A stretch of DNA of 64,000 nt, taken from NCBI GenBank assembly GCA_003116975.1, contig BGKB01000013.1, positions 1 to 64,000 on the forward strand, written 5' to 3'. This stretch comes from Aurantiochytrium sp. KH105. Lineage: Eukaryota; Sar; Bigyra; Thraustochytrida; Thraustochytriidae. Position numbers and translations under genes: made by a program. Below, one piece after another: positions 6,125 through 62,126 of the stretch. A model generated the notes under the pieces. It ran no database searches. It was not told the origin of the DNA and saw only the letters and a program-made list of their open reading frames with translations. How positions within the stretch are numbered: the stretch's first letter is position 1; every line of letters starts with the position of its first letter.

Positions 6125-8577
6125 GCACACCCTTTCCCCGAAAATCAGATAGCGGGGCGGCTCGGCGGCCCCGCGACGACTGCGGCGGCGAAGGAGGCGC
6201 TCCAGGCGGCGCTGGCGAACGGTGACCCCGCGGAGCTGGGCCGCTGCAAGCTCATGGTCGTCGGCCAGGACGCCGCCGGCAAGACGTCCGTGGTGCGCTC
6301 GCTGCTGAGCATGCCGCCCGTGGCGGAGCACCTCTCGACGGTGGGCGTCGAGCTCAAGCGCACCGATGCAGAGTCGTGGCGGGAAGAGGAATTCGACAGC
6401 GGTTTTGAAAGCCAGGCGTATCGCGCGGCGGCGCTGCGCATGGCCGCGCAGGAGCAAGCGGCGAGCAAAAGGCGGCAATCGCTGCCCAGGCGCGTGTCTC
6501 GCGGCATTGTAGACGTCGTCCGTCGACGTTCTTTTGCGGCACGGCCCTTTGTCGCAGAGGAGCAGGTGGAGCTTGTGCCCGAAGCCGAGATGGCGCAGCG
6601 GTTTGAATATGCGGAGATCGAGGACATGGCCGGCCAGACGCAATCGGGCCAGAAGATCAAGTTTACCATCTGGGACTATGCGGGTCAGGACGTCTTTTAC
6701 GCGCTGCACCACATTTTCCTCACGCGCGAGGGCGGCGTCTTCATGCTCGTCTTTGACATGCAGGAACTCCTCACCGAGCAAAAGAAAGCTCTGGGGTATC
6801 TGCGTTTTTGGCTCAACTCAATCAAGCTGCACGCGCCCAAAGCCCCTGTTCTTTTGGTCGCAACGCATTACGATCAAGCTTCCAGCAGCCTGCAAGCCGT
6901 CGAGCGAATTCTCCAGTCCCTTTTTCGTAAGCTGCGCGGAATCAAACTGGTGAAAAATAGTGGGGCTCGGTTAAGTTTTTTCCCCATCGACAACATGAAG
7001 CCCGCAGCGAACCGCGCTGCCGATCTGCGCGCTGCTGTGGAGAAAGCGGCATCCAAGCTTGAGGCTGTGTCGCAAAAGATCTCGCTGCGCTGGCTCAAGG
7101 TCTTGGACGATCTCATGAAATTGAACTGCGACCACGTTCCCTTTGCCAAAGTGCAGGAATACGCGATCAAGTACCATGCTGGCGACCAGACAGATGAGCT
7201 GCTCGAGTTTTTCCACGAGCTTGGCATGCTTGTGCATCTGCGCGCCACCGACATCCTGCACGACAAGGTCGTGCTGAATCCTCAGTGGCTTTTGGACAAG
7301 CTGGCGCGAGTCATTGCGGACGAGATCCACGTTCAGGACATTCTCTACGACGAGCGACTTTCTGACCTCGAACTCGAGGACGACTTTGCGCTCCTACGTC
7401 ACCAGGACATTGGTTCACGCGCCTTGCTCGAGATTTCTGGGACGATGAAGAAGTCGAATATCTCGTGGAGTTCATGCGCGGCGTCATGCTACTGTCAAAC
7501 TGGAATTTCCCGGAAGATGCCTTTACATCGGGCCGCCAAGGCAAGCCGCTCTATCTTGTGAGCAGTCTGCTCAAGAACTCGACCGACGCTGATCTTGACG
7601 CAGAGATTGCGGACATGGACCCCGGTCTGACATGCGTTCTGGACTTTACAAAGTTTTTCCTTCCGGACGGCGTCTTTGCGCGCCTGCTCTCGCTTTGCGC
7701 TCAGTACAGTGGGAACTTTGGGGCCATCTCGCGTGCACCTCAGCTGGCGGGAAATCAGGCCATCGTCCACTTCGGTCTCTCCGTCTTTGCGCTTGAGCAG
7801 ACCCAGGACAAGATCTGGATCCGCGTAGAGCGCGACTCCAGAGAACCAGCAAGCACGCTAAAGACGTTGGTGAGTTTGTTTCGAGACGCCCGTGACGCAG
7901 TCTTTCGAGATTTGCCATGGGAGCTCCTTCTTCAGTCGCCGAAAAATGCATCCGTGCTGGTTTCTTACGATGAAGCTGCGCGAGGGTTTGCATCATCTGG
8001 CGTAGAATTTGTCAAGTCAGTGGGCACCAAAGTTGTCAACGTTGCAGATTTTGAGCCATTCTTTCGAGGCGGGTCGCTGACAGAAGACGAGAAAGACACC
8101 GGGACCATCGAGCAGGCGTCACTCCGAGACTTGCCCGCAGGTCTCAAATACCACGTCTTTTTGAGCCACCGACAAGTGGACGCCGGCGACACATGCAATC
8201 TCATTGCTGAAAAATTGCAAAATCGAGGTCTCAAGGTCTGGTTCGATCAGGAGAGTCAGGGCAACCTGGCAGAGGACGCCATGCGTCGTGGAATTCGCGC
8301 GTCAAAGTGCTACCTTCTTTTCCTCTCCAAGACAGTCTTCGAGGGCGCTGTGCGCATGGAGCTCGAGACGGCGCTACAAGAGGAGAAGCCTATCTTGCTT
8401 GTCCACGAGAGCGATCCGAATCGAGTCGGCTTCGACACCTTTTCCAGTTACATCAAGTCGGCTCCAAATGCTGCCAAGCATCTCTTCCGCGAGACGGAGT
8501 CCATGCCTTTTCAACGTCGCTTATACTTGGCCGAGGCCTTTTACGAGGAGCTCATCGCACGGATTAATGCCGTTTGA
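6125..8577 (+). CDS. Roco GTPase with C-terminal TIR domain (one frame break)
   Basis: Roc GTPase: P-loop GQDAAGKTS (about 6263-6289), WDYAGQDV (6671-6694) and a VATHYD guanine-recognition motif (about 6857). The COR region follows (HDKVVLNPQWLLDKLARVI). Near 7433-7437 the reading phase changes: SRALLE ends one frame and FWDDEEVEYLVEFM starts in another, exactly as COR homologues continue. The second part holds the rest of COR and, from about 8146, a TIR domain (YHVFLSHRQVD, LKVWFDQES). The Glu of RMELETAL (8359-8361) matches the NAD-hydrolase Glu of catalytic TIRs. The frame is open back to 6125 (ALQAALANGDPAELGRCKLM) without an ATG; a CAG at 6145-6147 could be a splice acceptor, so a short first exon may be missing. 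Probable role: innate-immune or cell-death signalling, by family analogy. Confidence 0.85.
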
Positions 8578-10004: not shown

Positions 10005-13000
10005 TTACATTGACGAGGCATCATGAATGTAGAGGGCGAGGGCGCCCACGTTCGGGTGTCGGAACGCAATGTCGGGGGGCAAAGTCAAGTCAACGCCGCA
10101 CTGCTGCAGACGTGCTTCGAGCCCAGCGGCAAATTGCACCGCTTCGAGGGACGAAAACGACGACTTGCCGCCATCGGCGCCCATGAGCACCTCGTCGAGT
10201 GACTTTTGCAAAACCTCTTCGTCCAGTTGCCCTGCCTCTTCATGCCGAATGTCCCTAAGCTCATCAACACTCTGCAACTGTTTTTGCTCTTGTTCTTGCC
10301 CCTCATTTTGTTCTTGTTCTTGCTCTTGCGCTTGCAAGACCTCCTGCTTGCTCGCAGCAAGAGTTCCGGCGACCATGATGCACTCTACAATGCTTGCATA
10401 CGTGGGATCTAAAAGCAAGTCGCCAAAAGCCATGCCAACATCTGTGTCCGTGGCGCTTTCCGAATCCTCGAAAAGAGCGAGGTCGGCTGCCCGTCCTTGA
10501 AATCGCGTCGCCCGAGCAAGCGTCGCGTCCTGCGCATTCACCAGCGCAGCGACGGCACGACGGCGAATCTTGCCGCTCGATGTCTTGGGCAAGACGCCAG
10601 CATCGACGACAATCACCTCGGAAAGACTCACGCGCTGCTCGTTCAAGACATGCTTGTATGCCATCTGACATGCTCGCCGAACGACTGTCTCCCCTGATTG
10701 CCCCGCCTCGCGACGCAATTCGGCAACAAGAACGACTCCAGTCTCGTTTGCAAAGGCAGCGGATGAACCGGGACGCAAGGCTTGGTGTGCTTGTTCCGCA
10801 GTGGATTCCACATCTTGCGGATAAATGTTGCGACCATCGACAATGATCAAATCTTTGCAGCGGCCACAGATAAATAGCTCTCCGTTGCGCACAAATCCCA
10901 AATCTCCCGTGCGCAAAAATGTGACTTCTCGTTCACCGGTTTCGGAAACGCCCTCCGAATCGGCCGATGCGCACTGCGCTAAAAATACCTCTTTTGTCGC
11001 CTGCGGATTTGCCCAGTAGCCGTCCGCGACGCTATGGCTTCGCAACCAGATTTCGCCCACGCGTTCTTCCTGATGAGAAGACGTGAAGGCACGACCCGTA
11101 TCGGGGTCAATAATTCGCACTTCAACGCCTTCGTACGCGTCACCACATCCCACGAGCACAACAGCTTCTTTGCTGCTACTGCTGCTACTACTTTGGGTGC
11201 TGTCAAATCCAACATTGCAGTTCATGACTTCGACACAATGTTGTGCGAGCGCAGCTCTGTTTACGCGCAGCAGCGTCGGCGGGCGAAAATTCGATCGCCC
11301 AGAGACCATAATAGTATGTTCCGCAAGCCCGTAGCAGGGAAAGGCGGCGCTTCGAGAGAATCCGAAGCGCTCAAAGGCATTAGCAAAGGCGTCAAGTGTC
11401 TGCGCGCGCACAGGCTCGCCGCCGTTACCTGCAATACGCCAGCAAGATAAATCGAGACCCGAAAGCGCCTCGCCTGCAGCCGCTGCGGCTCGTGCCTTGC
11501 GAGCGGCGTAACCATACGCAAAGTTGGGTGCTGCTGAAAAGCTCGCTCTGTAGGTAGAGATGGCACGCACCCATAACAAAGGATCGCGCATGAATGCGAG
11601 TGGCGAAAAGCTCACGAGGCGAATTCCCGCAAAGACACCACTCAAAATGCACACGACCAGCCCCAGGTCGTGATATTGTGGACACCAATTTACAGCAGTT
11701 TCTCCACGGCCAGTGCACCCAAACGCTAGATGATTCTGAAACCCTTGTTCCATAATGTTACCATGTGTGATGCGGACACCCTTGGGGTTTCCGGTTGACC
11801 CAGACGTGTACTGGAGGTAGGCTACTGCGTTAGGATCGCTGGCCCACGCACACTCGGGCGGAAGTCGAGCCTTTGTCACAGCACTGCACCCGAAAAATCG
11901 CGGCCACCCCCTCTTTGGGCCAAGTCCCACACGATGCCATGAAATGGCGCGCGAGCTCGCAGATTCCGTGACAGGTGCCTTATTCCGAAGCTCGGACTGC
12001 GAAAATGCAAATACTCCGAACAACAGCCTGAGCCCGAGCAGAATTGCGGCGGTGGCCAAAACGTATTCAAGCCAGTGCGTAAGTCCCGATGAGTCTGTCT
12101 CGTCTTTCCACTCTGCGTCGGGAAGCCACACATTTTGCCGCTTCACCTTTTTGGTTTTGAGCTTGATGTACGACAAGAGAATTCCGACGGCAAGAGGAAT
12201 CACGACACCGGCCACTGCACAAGTCAATGCACATGTCCACTGCAAGACTTTCCATGCCTGTGCGGCTCGTCTTGCGAGCAAGAACGTAGCATCCGAAAGA
12301 ATGAGACGTGGCGAGCAGTCATTCACGACCCCTTGAAAAACTGCATCGCGCCCCGTCTCTCCTGGTTTGGGCGGGTACACGGGCACAGCGATTGCCCCGG
12401 TGTACAGACAAGCAAAGAAGGCGACAACAAATTCTAGCCCTGGGGCAAATACAAGCACCACACGGTCTCCTGGTTTCACGCCGTACGACGTGACAAGGCT
12501 CCACGCAAGTTGTGCGGCGCCTGCTTGAAGTTCTCCAAAGCTTAGGGTGCATTCCTCTCGTCCTTTTCCATCAAGCCACACCATGGCTGATTCGCTGCCG
12601 TGTTCATTTGCCCTGAGTGTAAGCACTTGAGCAATCGTTTGTGCACGCGTGCGCATTTCCTGTGCTCGCTGGCGAGCTTGATTGCGCAATTCTCGATGTG
12701 TATCGGCGGCATCAATTCGCTTTGAGAAAGACTGCGTTGCGGAATGAGTCGGAGGATGAGATGAAGACATGACGGGAGGAGCATGGGACGCACGAGCCGA
12801 CGCACTTGCTTCGTTCTTGCCGGCTGGCGCTTGGGAAGCTTCGTGCTCGTCCCAAAAATGTACGCCGGCGCGAATGCTCATCAAGAAGAGAATGCTCCCC
12901 AAGAAAACGACGCTTGGTCTGGAAAGTACGAGGCCATCATTGCGTTCAAGATTGGAAATGCCAAAGTCGCGCGCAATGGTCTCGTTCACGCTTTCGTCAA

Positions 13001-14576
13001 CGAAGGCGCGACCAAAGAGAACACGCGTTCGACTCATATCGAGCTGCTTGGCTTGAGGTGCTTTCAAATTGAGCCAAAACGCAAGGAGCGTGAAGATGCG
13101 CGCAGACCAAGAAAGACTGACCAACAAAAGACGCGGTGGCAAGGGAATCGAGGCCAACCAGGTTTGCAAACGCGTCGTCTCCAGCGCCTCCTGCTCAAGA
13201 AGCACGAGAACGGCATTGACGGCGGCAAACATGACCCAAGCGGGGAACATGCCGTGCCAGAAAGCCATAAAGACAAAGGTAGCTACGACGCCCCAGCGTC
13301 GATGGAACTTGAAGACGTCGCATACAGGGCCATAGATGTTTCCAAGGAGCCAGATGTGAACGGAGGCATTCATGTTGCGCCACATGTCCCCGACCGAAGT
13401 ATTACGGAACGCGCAGCGCGGGAAGTTATCCGTGACCTCGATGCCGTCGAGGAGCGCCCACAAGCGGAAATACCTCCATGTAAGTAGCATACGCATGTAG
13501 GCCGAGAGAAAAAGCACCAGCATCGCGGCCGCAGTCTCGCACGAGCGCATTTGCTTGTGGACGTGGCGATGTGTGAACATGGATGCGAACCAGTGATGGT
13601 CCAAGAATTCGCGAACGAGAACGGCGGAGACCAGCTTTCCTGCAAGAATGAAGCTCTTGCGCCACGGCACGGGGGCCACGCGCAGACGACCGTTGATCAC
13701 ACGATAACGACGTTGCGTCTGGATGCAGAAAGCACGATACCCAATGATTGGCCCTTGCCATACAAGCGGGGCATACATGGCATATCGCAGCACGGCGAGC
13801 CATTCTGGAAGCAAAGGAGCTTTGCGCCGTTTGCCTTGAATGACTTCCTTTGAGGATGGCGCAGCTCCTCCGGCTCCCCGAAGGAGTTCGCTCGTTGCAA
13901 AGTCAATGACACGAAAGAGCACGAAGCGCATGTTCGAGTGCCATTGGAGCCCACCGGGGCCAAGATTGAAAAGCTTGAGAAATCGCACAAAGGGATGTAT
14001 TGAGGCAAGCGTCTCGTAGTGGCGTGTGGCGTCGTACACGTAGTCCTGAACTTGTCTTGAATTCAGAACGAGGCCAATATTGAGGGCCCAGACAGTCGCT
14101 AATGCGGCGACACGCATTTTGTAGGAAGAAGTGCTGCGTCCAGCGACTACGATCACGTAGTTAATCATGGTTTGGGCGGCCACAATCCAAAAGAAGAAGC
14201 CGTAGAGCTTCCACAGAAATACTGTGGAAAGGAAAATGTCCAGGACGGCGTGGATGCGCACGGCCCATCGCGCGCTCACCTTTGTGGACCAGCGAAGCAA
14301 GATAAGGTCAACACCGCGCGAGATGGCGAGGAAGATGACAAGCGTGCCAAAAATCTCTGTAAAATGGGATCGCCACCAACGATGCTGGGGGTCTTGATCG
14401 TCCCGAACTCTCACTTGCGTTGAAAAGGCCGTCAGAGGCATCCATGCGGGGCTCGTGCCTGGGATCTTGACCATATCATGGTACATGGCGCTGCGTTCCC
14501 CAAGCTCTTGCAGCGGACCTACTAGGAGCCCCAAGGCAACTGCTGTGAAGGTCGCTGCGAGCTGCAACGACGACAT
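10005..14576 (-). CDS. MBOAT acyltransferase / fatty-acyl-AMP ligase / acyl-carrier fusion
   Basis: This is a 1523-residue protein from the first in-frame ATG (14574-14576). Residues about 1-600 are a multi-pass MBOAT acyltransferase with the catalytic His in FMAFWHGMFP (His441), preceded by an MWRNMNASVHIWL motif. From about residue 640 there is an adenylating domain of the fatty-acyl-AMP ligase type: YTSGSTGNPKGV (~923), CPQYHDLGLV, SPLAFMRDPLLW, SAAPNFAYGY, TGDLGF, GRCKDLIIVDGRNIYPQDVE and PKTSSGKIRRR with the catalytic Lys. A hydrophobic insert with two predicted membrane helices (residues ~760-860) interrupts this domain. The C-terminus is a carrier-protein domain with the candidate phosphopantetheine Ser1476 in FSSLEAVQF. 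Inferred chain: fatty acid to acyl-AMP, to acyl-carrier, to an acceptor via MBOAT in an internal membrane. The acceptor is unknown. No intron is needed. Confidence 0.9.
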   Translation of the reverse strand: MSSLQLAATFTAVALGLLVGPLQELGERSAMYHDMVKIPGTSPAWMPLTAFSTQVRVRDDQDPQHRWWRSHFTEIFGTLVIFLAISRGVDLILLRWSTKVSARWAVRIHAVLDIFLSTVFLWKLYGFFFWIVAAQTMINYVIVVAGRSTSSYKMRVAALATVWALNIGLVLNSRQVQDYVYDATRHYETLASIHPFVRFLKLFNLGPGGLQWHSNMRFVLFRVIDFATSELLRGAGGAAPSSKEVIQGKRRKAPLLPEWLAVLRYAMYAPLVWQGPIIGYRAFCIQTQRRYRVINGRLRVAPVPWRKSFILAGKLVSAVLVREFLDHHWFASMFTHRHVHKQMRSCETAAAMLVLFLSAYMRMLLTWRYFRLWALLDGIEVTDNFPRCAFRNTSVGDMWRNMNASVHIWLLGNIYGPVCDVFKFHRRWGVVATFVFMAFWHGMFPAWVMFAAVNAVLVLLEQEALETTRLQTWLASIPLPPRLLLVSLSWSARIFTLLAFWLNLKAPQAKQLDMSRTRVLFGRAFVDESVNETIARDFGISNLERNDGLVLSRPSVVFLGSILFLMSIRAGVHFWDEHEASQAPAGKNEASASARASHAPPVMSSSHPPTHSATQSFSKRIDAADTHRELRNQARQRAQEMRTRAQTIAQVLTLRANEHGSESAMVWLDGKGREECTLSFGELQAGAAQLAWSLVTSYGVKPGDRVVLVFAPGLEFVVAFFACLYTGAIAVPVYPPKPGETGRDAVFQGVVNDCSPRLILSDATFLLARRAAQAWKVLQWTCALTCAVAGVVIPLAVGILLSYIKLKTKKVKRQNVWLPDAEWKDETDSSGLTHWLEYVLATAAILLGLRLLFGVFAFSQSELRNKAPVTESASSRAISWHRVGLGPKRGWPRFFGCSAVTKARLPPECAWASDPNAVAYLQYTSGSTGNPKGVRITHGNIMEQGFQNHLAFGCTGRGETAVNWCPQYHDLGLVVCILSGVFAGIRLVSFSPLAFMRDPLLWVRAISTYRASFSAAPNFAYGYAARKARAAAAAGEALSGLDLSCWRIAGNGGEPVRAQTLDAFANAFERFGFSRSAAFPCYGLAEHTIMVSGRSNFRPPTLLRVNRAALAQHCVEVMNCNVGFDSTQSSSSSSSKEAVVLVGCGDAYEGVEVRIIDPDTGRAFTSSHQEERVGEIWLRSHSVADGYWANPQATKEVFLAQCASADSEGVSETGEREVTFLRTGDLGFVRNGELFICGRCKDLIIVDGRNIYPQDVESTAEQAHQALRPGSSAAFANETGVVLVAELRREAGQSGETVVRRACQMAYKHVLNEQRVSLSEVIVVDAGVLPKTSSGKIRRRAVAALVNAQDATLARATRFQGRAADLALFEDSESATDTDVGMAFGDLLLDPTYASIVECIMVAGTLAASKQEVLQAQEQEQEQNEGQEQEQKQLQSVDELRDIRHEEAGQLDEEVLQKSLDEVLMGADGGKSSFSSLEAVQFAAGLEARLQQCGVDLTLPPDIAFRHPNVGALALYIHDASSM

Positions 14577-14719: not shown

Positions 14720-14934
14720 TCTCTTCCTCGACGCCGCCTCCCCGCGCACAATGCCTCTCCCCGGCCGACCGATTTGCACCGTTTTGGAGCGAGATCCCCC
14801 TCGCGCTTCCCGCGCCCTGGCTGCCCCCCGGCCCTCCCTCCTTCCCCGCCCCGCTGGGGGGCACCCGGCACGTCCCTCCTACTCCCGCGCTTTCCCCTAG
14901 CTGCGGCCTAGGCCCGCGACGGCGGCCAGAACCA

Positions 14935-19311: not shown

Positions 19312-22300
19312 TCATTCAATTTCGTGTAAAATGTGTACGACTCCACTCGCGTCGACTACGACGTGACGGTTCTCCCATCGAGCTGCAATTCGGATTGGCT
19401 GATCCGTGGTGAACCCTACCCCTTCGCCAAGATCCACAGACGTTTTGTTGTCGCCAACCTCATAGATCATTGGCTCTGCTTCAGAAACGCTTGCTTCATT
19501 GTTCTCACCAATCTCATAGATCTTTGGCTTTATTTCAGAAACGCTCGATTCGTTGCTTCCCGACGTTCCGTCCGCTGTGTCCAGCTCTCCGTTCGTCTCG
19601 TACGCACCATGCATCCACAACGCCTCTTCGTCCGTCGTATCTGACTCTTCGTCCGTCGTATCTGAATCTTCGTCCGTCTCGTACTCAAAATTTCGCTTGC
19701 GCATCAAAATATTTCCCTTGCGAATCAATTCTTTCGCACTTTGAATCACTTCGTTCGTTCTTTGCATCGATTCGTCGTGTTTGAGAGCCATCAGGCTAGA
19801 ATGTTCGTCTCCCTCGAGAGTTTGTTGGAGCTCGCCCGTGGTAGCGTTCCAGATGCGAGTTTTGTTCCATGACCTGGCCACGATTGTATCTTCGTTGATG
19901 GTCACAATTTCGAAATGACCGACATGCCCCTCAAGAACATACTTCTCCTCGCCTGAGATCGTGTCCAAAATAAAAAATATATCGTCCGCGGACTGAGCTC
20001 CGATCATGTCGCCCTCAATGTTAAAGTTTGCATGCTCAAATGCGCCGAGCATCTCGTCCGACGTAGCGCTCCAAAGAAGTGTACTCTTTGATTGATCTTG
20101 TACAATTAGAAGCTGACCCTTGATCGCCACGCTGCTAACCTTCCCGAGAAATCCCTCGAGAACGTGCTTGAGGACACCCGTCGAAACGTCCCAAACGTGC
20201 ACTATCTCCAAGAACCAGGCTACGACAAACGTGCCTTCAATCTTAACATCCCAATCAGGGCCAACTTGATCCTCGAGGACGCAGTGCTCCTCGCCTGAAG
20301 TTGTGTTCAAAATGCTCAATGCCTGGTCCATAGACTCAGCTACAATAGTGTCACCCTCAATCTCTTCGAAACGTTTAAACACGCCCAGTGCCGTGCCTGA
20401 CGTTGCGTTCCAAAAGAAATATCTCTTTGCTTCGTCTTGCACAACAATGATTTGGCCCTTCACCATAACGCGCGAGATCGGATCAGAGTGAACTGCGAAA
20501 ATATGCCGGGGTGCCCCCGACACAGAATCCCACAGATGCACTGTGGTCATGCACCAGGCGATAATAGAATCGTCATCAAATTCCTTGAAATTTTCGTATT
20601 CCTCGAAAATCTCACCTGTCTCAATGTCACAAAACACATGCATATCATCATTGCTCAAAACGATGACTTGACCTATGAGCTTCACGTTCTGGACCCAATA
20701 AGAATGCTCCTCGAGGTCAAACTGGACTATGCCCGACTTAGCGCTCAAGACACACCACTCATTGTCGGAGGACCGTGCAACAATTCTGTCGCCGTTAAAC
20801 TCCCCGCACATTGTGTATGCTCCTTGCATCTTGCCTGACTTGTCGTCCCATAAAAGACTCTTCTTGACATCTCGCGGAACGATAAATTGCCCCTTGTTTA
20901 AGCTCAAAATGATGAGTCGTCCTTTTAATTAATTGCACGTCTCGGACCAGATTGGAAGAGTTTTGGTCAAAATTGTGCTGAATCTTGCGCTGGATCTTGC
21001 CAGACCTAGCATTCAAAATGCACAATCTACCCCACGATAGTGCAACAATTCTATCGTCTTCGAACTCATCGAAAACGCTTGTGTATGCTCCTAGCATCTC
21101 GCCTGTCGTGGTACTCCAGACAAGGCTCTCATAAACATCTCGCAAATCAAATAATCCTTGCTTCTTTCCTGCGCTCAACATGATGAGTCGGCCTATGAAC
21201 CGCACGTCTCGGACCTGCGCAGAATATTCGTCGAAATTGTGCTGAATCTCGCGCTGGATCTCGCCAGACCTAGCATTCCAAATGCACAACCTATCCAGCG
21301 ATAGTGCAACGATTCTATCGTCTTCAAACTCATCGAAAACGCTTGTGTATGCTCCTAGCATCTTGCCCGACGTGATATTCCAGACAAAACTCTCGTTATC
21401 ACCTCGCGAAACAACGAGTTCGCCCTTATTCGTCAGACCCGAGACTTCGGAAGTGTGCCTTGTGATGTTGTACTTCTCCTCTCCTGGCTTTGCCTTATAG
21501 ACGCGCAACGTTCTGTCATCCGACCCAGACACGAAGAAAGTTCCACCCTGAGTTTCCCCGCCCTGAATTTTCCCACCCTCAGTTGACACGTTCTGAGTTG
21601 CCACACTGTTCACGATCGAAAAGTGTCCTTCAAGAACATACTCTTGCTCGCCAGACTCAGCATTCCAAACACGCAATGTCTTGTCGCTGGAGCCAGACAA
21701 AATCCTGCCGTCCTTTATGTCAACAGCGCGGACCTCATCAGAATGGCCTTCGAGGGTGAGCAGATTCTTGCCAGTCACAACGTCCCAGGTACGCACTGTT
21801 TTATCTTTGGACCCAGACACGATGATGTTGCCATCAATTGCTACGCTCCAGACTTCAGCAGTGTGCCCTTCAAGTGTGAAGTTCGCTCTGCCCGATATAG
21901 CGTCCCAAACACGCACTGTATTGTCATCGGAACCAGACACAACGTACTTGCCCTTAATTGCCAAGCTTCTTACGGTACCAGCGTAGCCTTGAAGTACCCG
22001 TCGTTCCTTACCCGACTTTGCGCACCAAATACGTATTGTCCCGTTTCTGGATCCTGACACGATGAAATCTCCATCTATTGCCACACTCAAGACTTCGGAA
22101 ACATGTCCTTGTAGAATATGTTTCTCATCGCCTGAAATGGTGCTCCAAACGCGCACCGTTCTGTCGTCGGAACCAGATACGATGATTTTGTCTTTGTTTT
22201 GGATTGCCACACTCCGCACAACATCAGAGTGTCCCACGAAGACTCGCTGCTCCTTGCCCGATGTACTGTTCCACATGCGAACTGTCTTATCCTCAGACCC

Positions 22301-24592
22301 GGACACGATGACATCGTCCTCGATCGCCACGCTCGTTACGGAACGACTATGCTTCTTGAGAACGTGTTGCAAGGGGTCACGAGGATGTGTAAGGCTCGCA
22401 CAGAGGGGTTCCAGCCAGGGGGCTGCAGGTGGCTCTAGTTTCTGTAGCAGAGGATCATCTGAATTTTGGCCAAAGCGTGCTAGGATCTGCGACGCGAGCT
22501 CCTTGGGGTTGGAGCTAAGGACATGCACTGCTTTGCTTAAAAAGCGAGGAGTGTTGCTCTCGGGCTTGTCATATATGTGAAGGTCGACGCAGTCCCGAAT
22601 AAGGTTTCGAATTGTGGTGTATCTCTGTGCCTCGTCGGCATCGATAGAGAGGACGCTTTGTATCCAAGTTGAATCATTCAGGAGCTCGAATGCTGCAGCC
22701 TGGTTTCCGCTTTTGACGCTATGGAAAATTGCATTTCGGATCGCAAAGTGGTCCTCCCGTGAGCTGCGGCAATATTCGGCCAGGAGCTTGTGCCCTTCTT
22801 TTTCCGTAAGGGAAAGATCTCCACTGAGGTCGGCAGCAAGAAGCCAGTCTGCCATTCTTTTATGAATGAGAGCCACACGGTGATCGCCTCCTCGGTATAG
22901 AAGGTTGCGTGCATCTCCAACGATCTTTTTCGTCTTGTTTTTTGACTTGTTCAGAATCGCACTGATTTGCTCCTCACTCAGTGGCTCACGCGCCGTCACG
23001 ATGGGAGTCAGGAGTGTGCGGTATGCATCTTGCCCGCCCATCTTGTCTCGCAGGCGCCGAAAGTACTCTTCAAACATGCCATTGAGTCCGTCGGGAACGA
23101 CATCTTCCTGAGAGATATCCTCAAAGTTGAGTAATTTCCCCCCGTTTTCTTTTTGGATTCGCTCTAGCGTATCGGGCAGGAAGCTTGCCCAGAGAAAGAG
23201 ACCTTCTGATCGTTTCGACAGAAGGCCGGCGCATCTTTTCGCGTCCTTCGGGTCCACCACGTCGCTCATGTCTTGCAGCAAATGTTCAATGTGCAGCTTG
23301 ATATCACGAAAGTTTTCGCTGTCCTTGAGCTCCAAAACCTTACAATTCAGATTGTTGCCGATGACGCCGCGCTCGATGCCGCCCTCAGGACGTGTGCTCA
23401 CGATCAAGCTTAGCCATGTGGGCATCATCTCTTTCCAGGTTCGAATGATTTTGCGCAAGAGCTCATCGCTTTCGCTGCACTCGTCCAGAGCGTCGAGGAC
23501 AATCACTTGCCGTTCTTGCTTTGCTTGCTTTGAGTTCAGGTTGTCAAGCGGGTCAACAANCTGGAATGCCCCGGTCCATCCTGTATTTGGTCTGGTCATT
23601 CTTTTCTCCAGCGCAGCGACCACAATTCGGTCAAAGCGATGGTTCCCGGCGTAGCCAAACTCCTTCAGGCAGTTGTCTGTCCTATCGCCTTTGTTGATCT
23701 TTTCCATGTATCTTTCGGTTGCGAGGACGATGAAGACCTTCGAATCGTTAATTCCACGTGCCATACTGTTATTAATGCCTCGTTTAACATGTTTCTCGTC
23801 GATCCATATCTTGAGCTCGTGATCCTTTTCCAGGCGTCTTGCAATTTCCATCGCCTGATCGTGCACACCCCACTCGTGAGAGATAAAGGCGTGGAACGTC
23901 TCGACAGGCTTCTCACCTTTTGCCGCTTCCTGGATGTGGTTGAGAAAAGACGGAACATTGCTCTGGTCATCACAAAAGCCAAAGAACAGATCGTTGGCCA
24001 TACAGAAGCCGAGTTGACCACGCCAGGACCTTTGCTCAAGCATACGTTTTTCCACAACGACTGGAAAAAGTGCGTCTGGGAATTTACTGCTGACTGCCTC
24101 GACGAGCGCTTCATTATCTTGTAAGGCTGCACTTACCATCATTGCCACAGCAGTGGGAGGTCTGGCTTCAAGTTCTTCTTGAACCTTTGCAGCCTCGCTG
24201 AGGGTACGCACAGATTTTAGGCTGGGCTTGATGGCATCGAGGAACTGCTCTGCCACAGCTTTGTCCTTGGGATCGTGAACGATCAGAACAACAACCTTTT
24301 TCGCATCCTTCTGCGATTTCGCGGCCACTCCATTCCCTCTTCGTCGCTGCGAAGCCGCGCCTCTGGTGGCTTCTGGTTGCTGCGGAGCCGCATCCTTATT
24401 GAAGAAATCAATCTTGTCTTGGACGCTCAAGATCCCGGCCCTGTCGCAATCTTCAACGTTCGCCGGCCCATCGAGTTCGGAATTGTGGACGGCTACACTC
24501 CCCTCGTCCGCCTCGCTAGCCGCCCTTCGCGCCACCGTGAGCGCGGGTCTCCGTTTGCCACCACGGGCCCCTCCTCGTCTCAACGATCTCAT
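19312..24592 (-). CDS. TIR-NACHT-WD40 NLR-like protein (one frame break, one N)
   Basis: The ATG at 24590-24592 starts a basic N-terminal region, then a VVVLIVHDPKDK alpha/beta segment. A TIR domain follows (~23905-23590): HAFISHEWGV, LKIWIDEKH and a Glu in NCLKEFGYA (23660-23662) at the NADase Glu position. After the N at 23560 comes the second half of a NACHT/STAND NTPase (QVIVLDALDECSESDELL Walker B, then LIVSTRPEGG). No Walker A loop is visible. From about 22360 WD40 repeats begin: about seven canonical (VSGSDDRTVRVW type, GHS..V starts), then diverged ones continuing to 19312. The phase shifts once near 20925 (AAAA run); homology continues on both sides, and the downstream part has no ATG at its start. 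By family this is a nucleotide-switch sensor of self/non-self or stress. Confidence 0.82.
20938..21374 (-). repeat. 273-bp tandem duplication within the WD40 region
   Basis: The block encoding MLGAYTSVFDEFEDDRIVAL and the following ..RSG.IQR.IQHNFD occurs twice, 273 bases (91 codons) apart: GCTTGTGTAT at 21068 and 21341. It is nearly identical at the DNA level, including synonymous positions, so the duplication or conversion is recent. Confidence 0.8.
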
Positions 24593-41867: not shown

Positions 41868-42286
41868 TGAGCACCCGGCCGCGATTGGGTTCGAACAGCG
41901 TCTCGGCCGCCCGCGTCCGGGCCGTCCTCCCGGAACTCCGCGGCCGCATCTCTCGCTCTCGCTTCCGCTCTCGCCCTCGCTCTACCTGCGCGCCCCCCGC
42001 GGGCGCGCTCCGAGCGCAGTCATCCTGACCGCCAGAAGGGGGCCGCACGCAGAAGGCTAAAGAAAGGAGAAGCAGCAGACAGGCCGGGCGCATCTGCGCC
42101 GACCGTGGGAGGGAGGAGACGCAGCTCCCTCCCTCCCTACCTACCCATCCACTTATCTGCCTGTCTGCGTCTCTCCGTTCTTTCCCCTCTCTCTCTCTCA
42201 CCCGGCTCGCTACGCGCCTTTGTTGAGACGTCTTGAGACGAACCTGGTCTCCGGCGAGCCGTCGTGCGAACTTTTGCAAGAAACGC

Positions 42287-43260
42287 ATGGACGACGACGA
42301 CGCCGTTGACGTCGACTATTTGCCCAGCCCCTTCCCGAAGATGATTGCCAGCATGCGAGAAGATGTGCAGCTGTGTATCATCGGGGTCTGCTTCGCAACT
42401 GCAATGTTCGGAATCGCCTTCACACTGGAACGCGTCAAATATCGATGGTGGCTCATCCCAGGCCGAATAGGGACACTCTTGTGCAAGTACGTGAGAGCGG
42501 ATCGTCGATGGTCCCTCCGGCTCTTTCACTGGACCCTCATCGCCGCGCAAGCTGCATTTTTCGCGTTTATGCTTGGCACTGCGGCGCTTTTTGCGTCCAT
42601 GTTGGCACTCTCGTGGACCACATCTTCCTGGGGCGATTTTGTTCAAAATTCCTTCTCGGGGATCCTCTTTTGCGGGTCTTGCTTCCTCGGCGTCCTTGGA
42701 GGCCGCCTCTGGCATCACAACGCCGCCACGCTCGCGGCCTCCCTTAACGTTGTACAACGAAGTTGCGACCCAGCGCCAATTACGAGCGCAGAACACGCAT
42801 TACGAAACACGCTCACGGTCATTGGAGTAGTCGCCGGGACCCTGGCGCTCCTTTCGGATTTTTTCCTTATCCCCTTTGGGCGCTGCTCTGAGCAAGCAAC
42901 GCCTCAAGATCAAGCCGAGGCGGATTTTTGCGAACAAGTTGCATCTCACCCCTGGCTTATTGTTGATGTGTGGTGGCCGTTGTCTGGCAGCTGGGTGCCC
43001 ATGACGCTCTCTGCCTGTCTCCTTGTGTCGGCGCTCTACTTTGCCGATCTTTACATTCACGCCTCGCACGATGTTGTTATTGAGGCTTATTCACACCAAG
43101 CGGAGCTGAGAATGCGTTTTGCCGGCGTTCGATATGCTAGCCGTCGCCACAGCGTTATCTTCGCTGGTGCCGATGGGTCTTTGTCAGACCCATCGAGCCC
43201 TAATGACGACGATGACGCAGACGATTGCAGAGTGCTCGTCAACGATGAATCTCGTGTCGA

Positions 43261-43296
<36 letters not shown>

Positions 43297-46200
43297 TGAT
43301 AACAGTGATGATGATGACGACGACGACGATCTCGACCTGGACGAAGACGACATTCATGTTCACGAGGCTTCCGGAGATCTCAGGAAAATATCTGGACGCA
43401 GCGCCAACCCAATACAACAGCGTCACGATGCCCATCTGCTAGAAGATAGAAGAAGTGGGAAAGGTATTGAAGTAACACGCAACATCGAGCGTGGAGGTCT
43501 TCAAATCGAGGCCGATATGGCTGAAGATCTGTGGCTAGAATGTGCGGGTCCAGCCAAAATCAAACCTCAAAATGGTTCTGCCTCTGTTGCTGCTGCAACA
43601 CTGCCGCAGCCGCCGCCGCCGCCGCCGCCACCGCCGTTGCTGCCGCCGCCTTTAATAACGCCCATGACTTCGCCTTCCACATCGTCAACATCAGCGTCAC
43701 GCGAAAAAGAGACCAAATTGCCTCCCTCGCACACTACAGCTGATATCCCGTACTCGCTTGCTGATATTCAAACAAAGCTCGCAAGGTACAGACGTCGTCT
43801 CAAGCGTAACTTCATCACGCTTTATGCGCTTTCCGTCCTGGTTCTTCTCGCTCTCGCGGGAACGCACATGTATTTCACCGGCAAATCCTTTCTATTCTTC
43901 GAATGCATTGCCATCTTCCTCACGGACCTTCTTTTCATTTCCAAATTCTACACGTCTCATGTTTCGCGCGTCTTTAGCGGCATGAAAATTCACGTTGGCG
44001 GCATGGAGGCCACGCCTCTTGCCATTGTTCTCTTGGTTGTTCGCGCTGTGCTCTTTTCCACACCGAGTCAGGGCTGGTTCGTCGCACAGAGCATTGCCTG
44101 CCTCGTTGGCATCTGCTACCTCATTTGGAATCTCATGCCCTCCTATCTCGCTTCCGATGTTCACGCCGATCATGCTCGCGAACTTCGTCGCTTAGCCCGT
44201 CGCTGGAGGAACAAGTCCTGTGGCACTCTCCTCTCGTCCGCTCTCGTTGCATATTCTCGCGAGATCGTGGGCCTTGTGCTCTTTGCCTACTTTTCGATTC
44301 TCACCTGCATTGTGGCACTTCCCGAGGCCACTGCTCGCCTTCACTTCGCCACACGTACGCACAATGGTATTATGGTTTGCCACATCAACGGGACGCTCGT
44401 TCCGCTTTGGGAATTCGGTCTCACATGCATTATCTTTGCCTGCTGCTTTGGCCTTCACATGGCCGAATCGCTACAGAGACCCAAGATACCTGATTTCCGA
44501 TATCTCCGTCTCCTTTGCATCGTCTTTGGCGCAGATCTGGGCTTTGCCTACTTTATCAGCTGGTCGCACCTCTTTCCCGGCTTGGGTGATTTCTTCTTTG
44601 TCAACGTCGTGGTCTTTTTTCCGGCTGCTGTGTCCTGCGTCTGGGGCCACCGTCTCTGGGTTTCTGCAGACTACGTCTTTCTGAAGCATGACGGCTCGAA
44701 GAGGGATTGGATCATGATCGTCTGTTTTGTCACGGCCAACATCACCGTCTTCAGCGTGCCCCCAGTCGTGCACTTCACAATGGGCGCCGATGCCTCGCGT
44801 GTTGCCATCCCCGTTGTCGCATTTTGGTCTTTTATCTACGGTTTGCTGGCTGCACAATGCTGGTGCAATACACTTCAGATCTCGGGAAACAGGCAGCTTC
44901 ATGTTCTCTTTTCACTTCACTTAATCATGACTATCGCGGAAGCTGTCCTCGGGAGCCCGAATGCTTTCGTCAGTCCTGCTCTTACCAGCGCCGTCTTCAT
45001 CGGCACTCTTTACCATGATCATGACAGAATGACTTTTGCGTCGGCCATTGCCGTTCTCGCGGCGTGCAGCTCGGCCATTGTCACTGCTCTCGCTGCACCG
45101 TCGACCGCCGATGCCACGGTCGTGTTCTCTCTTGTCCTCGTGCTCTGTCTTTGGGTTGCATTTTTCGTAGCGGCCTGGCAGCCGTTGGCGCTGCAGCCTT
45201 CCATCGTTCCAGTCTTTGTCGTTCTCGGGGTCGCACTCTTCATGATCCTCAAGCTCGCCGACCCATTTGTGCACTTTTGCCTGTTGGTCGTTGCCATCGC
45301 ACTTGCGCTGGTATCTGGAATCTGGCGTTTTGTTGCACAGCGAAATCAGGGCTCTTCTTTCAAACGCATGGTTCTCTCCTCATCTTTTCTCGGTGTGCCC
45401 GCTGTCGTCTACACCGTCAACCAAAAGGGTGGCGATCTTCGCATCCGCCCTTTTGGCCGCAGTGGCATCATGATTTACACGCTTTTCGTCGGCCAGATTC
45501 TCACCTACCTCTGCAGCGCCTGGCTAAGCTCCAATATTGGCACCGTTACCAGCTCGCTCCTCTATTGCGTACTCTTTGTCTTTGTTCTCGAGCGCTCCTT
45601 GGCACGGCTCGTGCGTTTTCGACGAAACTTTACAGCGCTCCAGCTGCAAGGACTCGAAAATATTTTCGAGGCTGCCGTGAATGTTGCCGTCGAGCGCAGT
45701 GTTGAAATTTCACAGCAAGCCATTATGTCCTCCTGGCTCCGTGACGAGCGCCCCACGGCCTTTGCGCGCGACGCCTCTCGCCTTCTCGAAATGTTACCAG
45801 ACCCGAAGACGGACCACGAGAGCCTTGATTCAGATCTCTCTTTTGGCGCCGAAGCTGACGCCAGCGTCGACACCAGCTTTATGATTCTCCGCACGCCTAA
45901 ACAGCTCATGCAGTATTATGCGCACGTACAGGCCATCGAACTCGAAAACGACAAGCATTCGCGCGACGGAATCCATTTCCGTGCCCTCTTTGACGAGCTC
46001 CTCGTCATGTGCAGTGCACTCATTCGCAAGAGCGGGCCCAAAGCGCTCCCCGAGCCCCATCAAGACGACCGTGTTGACGCCCCATGGCTAAAGCAAGAGG
46101 CCAAAGACCCCAATCGTACACCCCGATCGTCGGGGGCCCTCGGCAGCGTTCCACACCAACGACCATTTACAGAGGTGCAGGAATCTTCTGTGAGCACTTC

Positions 46201-48133
46201 ATCCAATGACAGCCGAGAAGACGATGGGTCAACACATCAGCGGCCTACCACCAGCGTCATTGATGAAAACGAAAAAACTGTATCATCGACGAACAGCGAT
46301 GGCGAAGAAGCGCTTTGCAGCAAGGATGCTTGCACAAAGAAAACTCTAGACGGCGGTCCCCAAGATTGTGGTGAACGCCCCGAGGCACGTTGGTCCGATC
46401 CGGAGTTTAGCCCATCCATGGAAAGCATTTGCGGGATGGAACTCGGCCTGGAGCTTGACAATTGTGCACCCGTCATCGAAGAGGATATCGAATGGTGGCC
46501 CGCCTTGGACGAAAGCGATGTTGCAACGGCCCTAGATTCAAGCCTCGGGGACCTGGCCGAAAAGCCCGTTTCGCTCGTATACGAACCCAAGGATGTTGTC
46601 CAAGGCGCTGTGGGAGACTGCTGGTTGCTGAGCGCCATTAGCGTCGTGGCGCTGTGGCCAGATCTCATGGCGCGTGTCATGCCGCGCCGATCAGCCGCGT
46701 ATCCCGGTCGCGTGCGTGTCAGTCTCTTTGTACAAGGTGACTGGCACGACGTGGTGGTGGACGACAGCCTTCCTTGCCTCATCGCACAAAGCTGGGACCT
46801 AGACGGGAATGTACATGATGTGCCATCGGATTCTGAGCGCGACCTCTTTCCTCTGCCCTTGTTTTGTCGCTCTCGATCACCCAAGGTTGTCTGGCCAATG
46901 CTCTTGGAAAAAGCCTTCGCAAAAACGTATGGCTCGTACGAGATGCTTCGCGGGGGGCACGTACACGCTGCTCTCGTTGATCTCACAGGTGGGCTGACGC
47001 AGGTATTTCAATTGAAGCGCGACCTGGAGCTTGTCGCTTCTGGGGCATTGTGGAAACGTCTCAAGCGTTTTCGTGAAGAACGCCTTCTCTTGGCTGCAGG
47101 CACGGACGAAGACTGGCAAGGGCCAGACTATTCTCGTCGCGCGAATCGCGGCCGCGATGGCTCTGGTTTTCACCATCCTCATCATGCAGACCATGATGAT
47201 GAGGAAGACCTTGGCATTACTCCTGGCCACGCATACGCGATTCTTGATGTCGTTGAGGAAGTTGATTCACGTGGGCGTCACTGTCTTCTCAAATTGCGCG
47301 ATCCGTGGGGCACCTCCAAATGGAAGGGAGCTTGGAACAACCAGGACTCGGAGCGATGGACTCGTCGTATGCGCGCGCGCCTTAGTGTTGACAAACTTGA
47401 GGATAGCGAGGCGGAGGCAGCCAGTACAGCTGGGGGCGCTGCCACTTCGAGTGACTTTTGGATGTCGATGGACGATTTTGTCATTCAGTTCAAAGAGCTT
47501 TACGTGTGCCGTGTCTTTCCTGAGCGCAAGTCGTGGCATCACCGTCGGGAGTTTGGCACCTTTTTTGGCCGCAGCAGCAGGAAGTCTCATCGCGCCCACG
47601 CGTCGCATGAGGACGCACCCGTGTCAGCTCGTGTTTCCGTCCTTGCGCACGACAGTTTTGCAGCCGACGTTGAAGCGATGGCAGCTGCGCACCAGCGTGG
47701 CCACGATGGATACACGGACCAGTTCGCTCTGCGTTTGCATTCAAGTCGAAAGTACAAGCACGGTAAAGTGTACGTGTCCATTACGCAGATCACACCTCGT
47801 GGCGAAGAGGCCTTCATGACTCTCGCACTTCTCAACAACAATGGCGAACGCGTTGCTGCCGACAGCGAAGTGCGCAACCGCCACGTCGTCGCTACGGCCG
47901 GGGCGTATCGCGACACGCGCGAGGTCTCGCTGGAGACTTCACTTCCATGCGGGGAGACCAAATTCTTTACACTGCTTCCCTCCTTGTACACGGACGTGGA
48001 TGTCAAATTTACCATCAACGTGTACTCGGAGTGTGAAGTTGAGCTCAGGCCTTTGCGTTCGCCTTCTATTTCTACTACTGCTACATCGGCTGCCCCCAAC
48101 GCTACATCTGCCTCGGTGGCGAATCTTCCGTGA
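42287..48133 (+). CDS. Transmembrane calpain of the DEK1/TML type
   Basis: This is 1948 residues from the first ATG (42287). A multi-pass N-terminal region (roughly residues 20-1120, about twenty hydrophobic segments) is interrupted by an acidic loop with a poly-Asp run (~320-360) and a poly-Pro stretch (~445). A Ser/Asp-rich cytosolic linker follows. The C-terminal calpain protease core has AVGDCWLLSAI (Cys1445) and GHAYAILDV (His1648), and where calpains have RNPWG it reads LRDPWG (Asp1672 for Asn). A loop rich in His/Asp (HHPHHADHDD) precedes the His. A C2-like calpain beta-sandwich domain ends the protein (VYVSITQITP, ETKFFTLLPSLY). Plant DEK1 shares this plan and senses position/mechanics in the plasma membrane; a similar membrane-tethered protease is inferred here. 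No intron is needed. Confidence 0.93.
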
Positions 48134-60030: not shown

Positions 60031-61710
60031 ATGATGCTGGGGCCTCAGAGACTCTCGCGCGCGGTGCTGCTGCTAGTAGTCGTCGTAGCCGGTATCACGA
60101 CGACATCTTGCGGTCGTCTGGCACGTGGTGAAAAACCGAACATTGTCATGATCGTCATCGATAGCCTTGGATACGCGGATCTTGGTTTTCGCAACGACAA
60201 GGAGATCGACACGCCCAACCTCGATGCCCTTGCGGATCGAGGGCTCAAGCTAGAGCGATACTATGTACACACCGCTTGCTCTCCAAGCCGCGCCGCTCTC
60301 ATGACAGGACGCTATGCGCACCATACCGGCGTCCACGACTCCTTTGAGGCTAGCTCGAACCTCGCTGTTGAGTCTGACGAAGTCTTCCTCAGCGAGCAAC
60401 TCAAAGATGCAGGCTATGCGACCCACATGATCGGGAAGTGGCACCTCGGACATCACAAGTGGGAGTACTTGCCCACATATCGCGGTTTTGATTCATTTTA
60501 CGGTTTCCTCACTGACGGAGGCTGCTATTACATGGGTCGCAGTACTGGCAACTTCAAAACCTATCGGTTTTGGTTTCACTATCTCGAAATGAATGCACCC
60601 AAGTGCAATGTCGAATCATGTGTGCGCATACCCTGGGAGGCGCAGAACCAGTACTCGACGGAAAATCTCAGCAACAAAGCAGTGCAAGCCATTTCGCGCC
60701 ATGCCGAGAGCTTTAGCGACAAACCGCTATTTCTCTACCTTGCCTACCAGGGCGTAGCTGCAGGCTTTCCTCAGCCGAACCAAGTGCCGCCCCACTTCGC
60801 AGAGCCGTACGCAAAGCGCATCAAGTCGCCTACGCGCCGACAATTCGCTGCCATGCTCTCTGCGCTCGATCAGGGGATTGGCAACGTTACACACGCACTC
60901 CAGCTGAATGGCTTCAATGAAGATAATACGCTCATCATCATCTCTACCGACACCGGCGGGCCCGTCGATACAGAGGACGCTGTAGGAAGCAGCAATCAGC
61001 CTCTCCGGGGCGGCAGACATTCGCTCTTTGAAGGCGGTGTCCGTGGAACAGCCTTTCTCGCAGGATATGGAGTTTCTACCAAGAACCGCTCCGTCTATAA
61101 AGGCCTCATGCACATTGCCGACTGGTTTGCCACAATTGCGGATGTCGCAGGATTCCCGATCAAGTCCTCTAAGCGCCTCGACAGCCTTTCGCATTGGACA
61201 CATCTCTCGGGAAGCGCTCTCGACGCAACGTCCGCAGTCCGTTCAGAGGTTGTGCTCGGCAATGTCTCCGAGAGCTACGGGACTGGATTTGCGATGATCG
61301 TCGACGAGCAAGGCACGAAAGATGAGAGCGCGACGGCTGGGCCAAAACAGTGGAAGATTGTGGCGGGGTCAGCCGGTTATCCCTTTACGTGGTCTGACAG
61401 CAATCCGCAGCCTCATCAGAGAGAAAAGGGTTATCAGCCTCCTTCTTCCAAGTCTTGCAAGCACGGATACTGCCTCTACGAGCTCTTGTCGGATCCGTAC
61501 GAGCAAAATGATCTCGCCACGGACCCTGCATACACCAACGTTCTTGCCAACTTGCGTACAAAGCTTCATGCCGAGCTCGAAACCTCGCACACGATCGTAC
61601 CAGACTGCACCAAAGCCCCCGTTGAAAAGTACGAGCAGCATGTTGTTCATGTATGGTACCCGTATTGTGACGACACCTCTCACAGTACTTTTCCAACCAT
61701 TCCAATTTAG
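60031..61710 (+). CDS. Arylsulfatase-family protein, active site degenerate
   Basis: This is 559 residues with an N-terminal signal peptide (residues ~9-27, AVLLLVVVVAG). The sulfatase fold is complete, with the formylglycine motif CSPSRAALMTGR (Cys83), IGKWHLGHH (Lys136, His138) and a C-terminal domain ending in WYPYC. Compared with human arylsulfatase B and with its tandem neighbour, several metal/sulfate ligands differ. The second Asp of the first DD pair is Ser45 (VIDSLG). The QAVHAG His is Ala243 (QGVAAG). The Asp-Asn pair is Asp307-Thr308 (STDTGG). The RGGKH Lys is Arg329 (RGGRH). The protein may be inactive or have a changed role. It is probably secreted, lysosomal or at the cell surface. 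The copy is full-length, so it is maintained rather than decayed. Confidence 0.92.
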   Translation: MMLGPQRLSRAVLLLVVVVAGITTTSCGRLARGEKPNIVMIVIDSLGYADLGFRNDKEIDTPNLDALADRGLKLERYYVHTACSPSRAALMTGRYAHHTGVHDSFEASSNLAVESDEVFLSEQLKDAGYATHMIGKWHLGHHKWEYLPTYRGFDSFYGFLTDGGCYYMGRSTGNFKTYRFWFHYLEMNAPKCNVESCVRIPWEAQNQYSTENLSNKAVQAISRHAESFSDKPLFLYLAYQGVAAGFPQPNQVPPHFAEPYAKRIKSPTRRQFAAMLSALDQGIGNVTHALQLNGFNEDNTLIIISTDTGGPVDTEDAVGSSNQPLRGGRHSLFEGGVRGTAFLAGYGVSTKNRSVYKGLMHIADWFATIADVAGFPIKSSKRLDSLSHWTHLSGSALDATSAVRSEVVLGNVSESYGTGFAMIVDEQGTKDESATAGPKQWKIVAGSAGYPFTWSDSNPQPHQREKGYQPPSSKSCKHGYCLYELLSDPYEQNDLATDPAYTNVLANLRTKLHAELETSHTIVPDCTKAPVEKYEQHVVHVWYPYCDDTSHSTFPTIPI

Positions 61711-62126
61711 CGCTAGCTACTATACGACTCTTTCCCTAAAGCACGAAGTTGACTCAGTGTACGATGCATTTCTTGTATGAAGTTACTTGCCTCCGCCCCT
61801 TTTCCCTTCTCTAGACGGAGTCTTTTGTCTCGCTACGAGTAATAAAAGAGGCAGATCTTTTCGTGTCTGGTATGCTAGGCATATACTATGCCTATAGGCC
61901 TAGTATAGGCCTGCCCTTGTTTTAGTGGCGGTTGATTCTTCGATCGTCGGAAAGGCGATCCTGCAGATCTTGCTTGATTCCGGGCAAACGCGCTTGCTCG
62001 TTCGCTCGCTCGCTCGCTCGCTCGCTCGGACAGATCTCTGCGCCGCTCACGTGAACCTGCGCTCGTTTCACGGCCTCGCCGAATAACGGAGCGGGTGGTG
62101 AGTGAGTGAGACGTGCAAGACTGAAG
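61711..62126. other. Spacer between the two arylsulfatases
   Basis: It contains AATAAA (about 61842), two TAGGCCTA-type motifs (61894-61912) and a CGCT repeat (62002-62028). No gene is seen. Confidence 0.55.

Follow-up and report, generated by a model that had tools for sequence, protein, structure and literature searches.

Can one eukaryotic protein activate a fatty acid, load it onto a carrier and hand it to a membrane acyltransferase, and how would such a protein relate to the bacterial Dlt system? The question is raised by a gene in the window, the whole 64,000-nucleotide stretch of Aurantiochytrium sp. KH105 DNA that we analysed, whose product combines an MBOAT part, a fatty-acyl-AMP ligase (FAAL) in two pieces and a carrier-like tail in one uninterrupted frame of 1523 residues (positions 10005..14576, minus strand, as for all its features below). 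Translation of the minus strand bears out the original prediction of such a frame, its strand and its coordinates, with an ATG at 14576, a stop codon at 10005-10007 and no internal stop. The frame of the window copy stays open upstream of this ATG as far as a GTG at 14864, but that of a second copy of the gene opens just six codons ahead of the equivalent ATG, which makes the ATG at 14576 the likely start. In the full protein, the Pfam families MBOAT, AMP-binding and DIP2-like AMP C-domain all pass their cut-offs. Three domains had been foreseen in this chain: MBOAT and AMP-binding were recovered far above the Pfam thresholds, whereas PP-binding was matched but stayed under its own. MBOAT, FAAL and carrier are each of a known kind, and the architecture first proposed stands, except that it omitted two hydrophobic segments within the adenylation domain (residues ~771-870). 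A polar linker (residues 575-650, 12627..12854) lies between the MBOAT and FAAL parts.

A frame constrained in two copies

The second full-length copy, on contig C24 of the same assembly (76 Mb, 367 contigs), is 97% identical to the window copy across all 1523 residues, and the 4572-base frame is found in both with zero length change, while the flanks of about 1.5 kb align only with gaps (91% identity upstream, 94% downstream). Over the whole frame the dN/dS ratio between the copies is 0.23 (dS 0.069, dN 0.016). It is 0.05 in the MBOAT core, 0.116 in the hydrophobic insert (residues 771-870), 0.25 in the main FAAL piece and 0.15 in the carrier-like tail, the last value being based on three changes, and reaches 0.47 in residues 501-650, which include the linker, and 1.1 in residues 1351-1445. 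When the excess of silent changes was tested by Fisher's test on rounded counts for five parts and the whole frame, it was significant for the whole frame (p 1e-15), the MBOAT core (p 0.0009), the insert (p 0.0009) and the main FAAL piece (p 3e-5), and non-significant for the carrier-like tail (p 0.14) and residues 501-650 (p 0.11). Because a constrained copy of equal length lies on another contig, we conclude that the frame is real, and neither a chance opening nor an assembly join. The two copies may be two haplotypes, since the other matches in the assembly are likewise paired, with near-equal scores on different contigs, one weak match on contig C44 being the exception. Such paired matches resemble an unmerged two-haplotype or hybrid assembly.

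The MBOAT part

The N-terminal membrane part (residues 1-574, 12855..14576) contains multiple hydrophobic segments, as judged by hydropathy alone, and is tentatively assigned as a GUP1/HHAT-like MBOAT by alignment and by its Pfam core (PF03062, residues 251-485, E 1.7e-20, 74.0 bits against a cut-off of 27). The histidine of the FWHG motif, His441 (13254..13256), is where the original prediction placed it and aligns with the invariant MBOAT histidine. The MBOAT signature combines this histidine with an asparagine, aspartate or histidine 30-50 residues upstream (PMC5831804), here Asn403 (13368..13370) at a spacing of 38, which occupies the site of HHAT Asp339, DGAT1 Asn378 and yeast Gup1 His411. 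Residue roles here and below are taken from passages of PMC11035591, PMC5831804 and PMC8693861.

The same genome, in which PF03062 has at least eight matches (two of them below cut-off), encodes a separate 702-residue GUP1-like MBOAT that is 25% identical overall to the window MBOAT in alignment and that matches its residues 160-482 at 21% identity and 79 bits in a local blastp comparison, while the best of 15 bacterial MBOATs, the top-scoring matches from a survey of 296 genomes, reaches 37 bits. A profile of two MBOAT pairs retrieved HHAT from the PDB as its top match (E 1e-19), followed by DGAT1, although this profile contains GUP1-like rows, which raise the HHAT score; the window MBOAT alone matched only DGAT1, at E 0.08. 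By sequence, the window MBOAT thus appears to lie nearer the GUP1/HHAT branch than the 15 bacterial MBOATs compared. Since the genome retains its separate GUP1-like MBOAT, the job of the fused enzyme may well differ from that of yeast Gup1, for which GPI-anchor remodelling has been proposed (PMC5831804).

The aspartate or histidine that the GUP1/HHAT branch carries at the signature position is absent, its place being taken by Asn403. DGAT1, ACAT1 and PORCN use acyl-CoA as donor. An asparagine at this position is native to these three enzymes (PMC11035591). In these alignments, read by hand, His441 corresponds to HHAT His379 and DGAT1 His415, Asn403 to HHAT Asp339 and DGAT1 Asn378, Cys388 falls on the HHAT haem ligand position Cys324, and Trp399, Arg400 and His407 fall on HHAT Trp335, Arg336 and His343. 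HHAT takes palmitoyl-CoA as its donor, holds the CoA phosphates with R336 and H343, and is inactive as the D339N variant (PMC8693861). As the window protein has an asparagine at just this position, HHAT-like N-acyl transfer is unlikely. The counterparts of the CoA-phosphate residues, Arg400 and His407, count against a strictly non-CoA donor; a phosphopantetheine arm likewise bears a phosphate.

A split FAAL and a carrier-like tail

The adenylation part consists of a first piece (residues 651-770, 12267..12626), recognised by Pfam, PDB match and alignment, and a second (residues 913-1350, 10527..11840), which holds Trp964, Leu971, a helix-like stretch at 991-999, Phe1019 and Lys1336. Pfam AMP-binding covers residues 655-1188 (E 1.1e-54) and the DIP2-like AMP C-domain residues 1242-1343 (E 1.3e-8), both above cut-off, and the AMP-binding core motifs are present together with the catalytic lysine of motif A10 (Lys1336). 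The top NCBIfam models were one for NRPS/PKS proteins starting with such a domain (373 bits), then PRK05850 (337 bits against a cut-off of 775) and FadD32 (336 against 975), and all 25 models among the matches listed fell below their curated cut-offs, thresholds drawn up with close bacterial members in view. Among solved structures, the best matches were 7r7g and related entries, which bear the label 'Polyketide synthase', followed by 3kxw and the FAALs FadD32 and FadD23; 7r7g and 3kxw are FAALs as well.

FAALs are marked by a specific insertion and helix and by a CoA pocket blocked, in EcFAAL, by W224, M231 and F279 (PMC8460268). The stretch between motifs A5 and A7 in the window protein corresponds to this FAAL-specific insertion, which is gapped in three FACL-like proteins of the same organism, and the stretch SPLAFMRDP sits at the position of the FAAL-specific helix. 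Trp964 and Phe1019 fall at EcFAAL W224 and F279, with Leu971 replacing M231; these positions were mapped by counting along 7r7g and not on 3PBK, and EcFAAL W224, M231, P259 and F279 all land on matching letters of 7r7g. We aligned the window protein with seven bacterial FAALs, the organism's own pair of FAAL-carrier proteins and three of its FACL-like proteins. The bacterial rows represent seven of eight loci, a Vibrio locus being omitted as a split gene; two further loci (L001 and L002) were also left out of the tree, and three of the FACL-like matches of the organism itself were used. In the resulting 14-row tree with midpoint root, the window FAAL falls within the 11 FAAL rows (98/98) and pairs with the FAAL-carrier protein that the organism also encodes (97/93); its core is 37-42% identical to the seven bacterial rows over 519-569 columns. 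Judged by these sequence hallmarks, the adenylation domain is a FAAL, with a predicted enzyme activity to match. The full FAAL-type domain of the original prediction is therefore present in its hallmarks, but split by an insertion and so not continuous.

The FAAL-carrier protein that falls beside it in the tree is about 890 residues long, is encoded on contigs C18 (near 415265-417289) and C89 (near 346188-348125) and carries a normal carrier (LGMDS, 38.8 bits). It ends in CFAICGC, for which lipid modification is our guess, and it may possibly be held at a membrane too.

The insertion region (residues 771-912, 11841..12266), delimited by hydropathy, alignment and dN/dS, contains an insertion of about 110 residues with two hydrophobic segments at 783-801 and 839-857. 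Two FAAL positions with a spacing of 45 in 7r7g (119 to 164) lie 156 apart here (761 to 917), the insertion is absent from all nine other FAAL rows of the alignment, and the 30 plasmid matches listed in a tblastn search are interrupted here, each falling into two or three pieces. A retained intron was considered and dropped on account of the constraint on the insert between copies. If the two segments form a helix pair, as hydropathy suggests, they would bring the chain back to the same side and anchor the FAAL at the membrane. We regard the insertion as the strongest feature added to the earlier account, and an adenylating domain threaded by a membrane hairpin would, if real, be unusual in its own right.

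A C-terminal carrier domain had also been claimed, and here the outcome is mixed: the tail (residues 1446-1523, 10008..10241) reads carrier-like from its candidate phosphopantetheine site onward (SSLEAVQF ... LPPDIAFRHPNVGALALYI), but its score is below the Pfam cut-off and the usual Asp-Ser motif is degraded to Ser-Ser. Ser1475 stands in the place of the aspartate, and the serine is kept as Ser1476 (10149..10151), giving SSL for DSL. Against a cut-off of 20.8 bits, PP-binding scored 13.6 bits (E 0.083) in the whole protein and 19.4 bits (E 0.0012) in the last 85 residues alone. The first carrier helix goes unrecognised, because the match is limited to profile positions 30-67. A model built from eight carriers gave the tail 10.5 bits, a weak score (domain E 0.15), against at most 8.7 for 2000 shuffles, 1791 of which returned a score. 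Its matches among solved structures were a peptide-synthetase chain (E 0.5) and an erythronolide-synthase chain (E 1.5), both short, which we take to be carriers. The tail is thus probably a member of the carrier family, as far as its sequence allows it to be classed.

Proposed mechanism and alternatives

We give about an even chance to a single-chain, membrane-held machine in which the FAAL activates, the carrier is loaded and the MBOAT transfers the acyl group. The MBOAT helices and the two-segment hairpin would hold the FAAL on the cytosolic face, where it would make acyl-AMP from ATP and a free fatty acid. From acyl-AMP the acyl group would then be loaded onto the phosphopantetheine that Ser1476 of the carrier-like tail is predicted to bear, and the charged arm would enter the cytosolic tunnel of the MBOAT. 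There the enzyme, with Asn403 and His441 as a pair of the kind present in DGAT1, ACAT1 and PORCN, would transfer the acyl group to an alcohol that lies within the membrane or on its far side. The product would be an O-acyl compound, and our guess for the acceptor is a lipid of the ER, either a glycerolipid or a glycolipid. The N- and C-terminus of HHAT are both cytosolic (PMC8693861), and with this topology the C-terminal FAAL would sit where ATP is. The handover from phosphopantetheine has a precedent, since DltB accepts its donor from a phosphopantetheine carrier seated at its cytosolic entrance (PMC11035591). More specifically, with somewhat less than even chances, it would be a eukaryotic, CoA-independent single-chain acyltransferase in which a GUP1/HHAT-type MBOAT is fed in cis by a FAAL and a carrier, with the FAAL membrane-bound through its hairpin and the Dlt logic reinvented independently. 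Several features of the sequence speak against the main reading: the carrier is below cut-off and lacks the aspartate, its dN/dS is based on three changes and is non-significant, Asn403 does not suit N-acyl transfer of the HHAT type, and the CoA-phosphate counterparts Arg400 and His407 would suit a CoA donor too.

The last of these is the starting point for an explanation that we consider unlikely, namely that the MBOAT, like HHAT, draws on ordinary acyl-CoA and that the FAAL-carrier half works separately, for example by feeding a biosynthetic enzyme, the fusion being a matter of co-localisation. The organism's own GUP1-like protein, in which Pfam finds MBOAT alone, has no FAAL and is in keeping with such a donor. 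The fusion has nevertheless been retained under constraint in both copies, and the hairpin would keep the FAAL at the membrane beside a working MBOAT. Alternatively, the tail might be a carrier remnant, so that the FAAL loads another carrier, such as that of the C18/C89 protein, or passes acyl-AMP directly to the MBOAT; the degraded motif and low PP-binding score, together with the normal carrier of that second protein, fit this view, which we think quite unlikely given that the tail reads as a carrier from the serine onward, outscores all shuffles, matches two presumed carriers among solved structures, if only at E 0.5 and 1.5, and is unbroken in both copies.

Two further alternatives concern the gene rather than the enzyme. 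That it yields two or three separate products, through an internal start, processing or unrecognised introns, is suggested by the long polar linker and the looser constraint around it; we judge it very improbable, because both copies are free of stops and equal in length while their flanks carry gaps, and because the constraint on the insertion speaks against an intron. An assembly artefact that fused neighbouring genes was dropped in view of the second full-length copy on C24, and with the full-length frame on two contigs and no point found in its support we give it next to no weight. The preferred reading remains the single-chain acyltransferase fed by its own FAAL and carrier.

In keeping with the carrier step, the genome has six matches to PPTase domains above cut-off, arranged as three pairs, one of which lies within a FAS-type frame that is open for more than 4100 residues and has an ACP, a ketoacyl synthase and a C-terminal PPTase. 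Single-chain FAS proteins of this layout are typical of thraustochytrids. PfaA-type PUFA synthase matches score 930 bits on C72 and C155, below the full-length cut-off of 1010; since 11 of the 14 control genomes also yield weaker, sub-cut-off hits with this model, it is the score and not the mere match that is informative. The PUFA synthase matches and the FAS frame fit a labyrinthulomycete, which the original prediction had assumed. A large NRPS frame with condensation, adenylation, carrier and reductase-type NAD-binding domains lies at C44:999000-1006000.

Distribution and comparison with known systems

The original prediction held that no protein with the order MBOAT-FAAL-carrier had been described, and the literature that we searched contained none. 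A search for MBOAT with adenylation domain, carrier and fusion returned only Dlt papers, those for MBOAT with FAAL and for MBOAT with AMP-binding and phosphopantetheine returned only a paper on EMT lipidomics and one on sesame, respectively, and the main text of a thraustochytrid proteome paper (PMC12221091) is silent on MBOAT and AMP ligase. A scan of genome contigs with the whole protein found two loci, both in Streptomyces and both matching the adenylation part only (25% and 23% identity), and the viral contigs scanned held no relative. Among plasmids, 800 records matched by tblastn, none with a single place covering 80% of the query, and the 30 of these matches that were listed all fell within query residues 635-1365. 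In the phylum to which the Streptomyces locus belongs, 63 of the 296 genomes surveyed have an MBOAT; the MBOAT frames among the matches listed for this one phylum measure 170-670 aa, so none of these is long enough for MBOAT plus FAAL, and the genome of the Streptomyces locus has none. If our reading is true, a eukaryotic FAAL-type domain would gain a concrete output, in an organism of thraustochytrid type, and a naturally occurring MBOAT fused to an activator that rejects CoA would make it possible to test cleanly whether such enzymes in eukaryotes can accept acyl groups from a carrier, as DltB does.

Elsewhere in the window we observed Roc and COR-A followed by a TIR domain on overlapping frames (6254-8577), a 1265-residue frame with TIR and WD40 repeats (20795-24592), a 1966-residue frame with a calpain protease domain close to its C-terminus (42233-48133) and two adjacent sulfatase frames on one strand (60031-61710 and 62106-63782).

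Among known systems, epsilon-poly-lysine synthetase is likewise a single chain with adenylation and carrier domains and membrane helices, but polymerises amino acids through condensation-like domains and has no MBOAT. Bacterial FAALs and the FAAL starters of PKS/NRPS proteins share the FAAL core with the window protein, which differs from them in its hydrophobic insertion and in-chain MBOAT. DIP2 proteins, which combine a DMAP1-binding domain with two FAAL-like domains (PMC8460268), resemble it as bearers of a eukaryotic FAAL-type domain, and the window protein matches the DIP2-like AMP C-domain; it has, however, one FAAL, plus an MBOAT and a carrier-like tail, and Pfam finds no DMAP1-binding domain in it. 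The likeness to the GUP1/HHAT branch lies in HHAT being the best PDB match of the profile, with its GUP1-like rows, and in the haem cysteine matched by Cys388, the difference in an asparagine where HHAT has aspartate and Gup1 histidine, and in the fusion to a FAAL and tail. In the Dlt system (DltA, DltC and DltB), an adenylation enzyme, a carrier and an MBOAT likewise act in series, and the sequence of activation, loading and handover to an MBOAT that the original prediction borrowed from it stays the best mechanism. Kinship of the MBOAT with Dlt is unsupported: derivation from DltB was dropped with the GUP1-like protein at 79 bits against at most 37 for the 15 bacterial MBOATs, and among 20 frames of the window none has a Dlt partner in its Pfam listing. 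The window protein is moreover a single chain, closer in its MBOAT to a GUP1-like protein, in which a FAAL with a hydrophobic hairpin replaces the amino-acid adenylating enzyme. By sequence comparison, then, Dlt appears to be an analogy to the window protein and not its ancestor.
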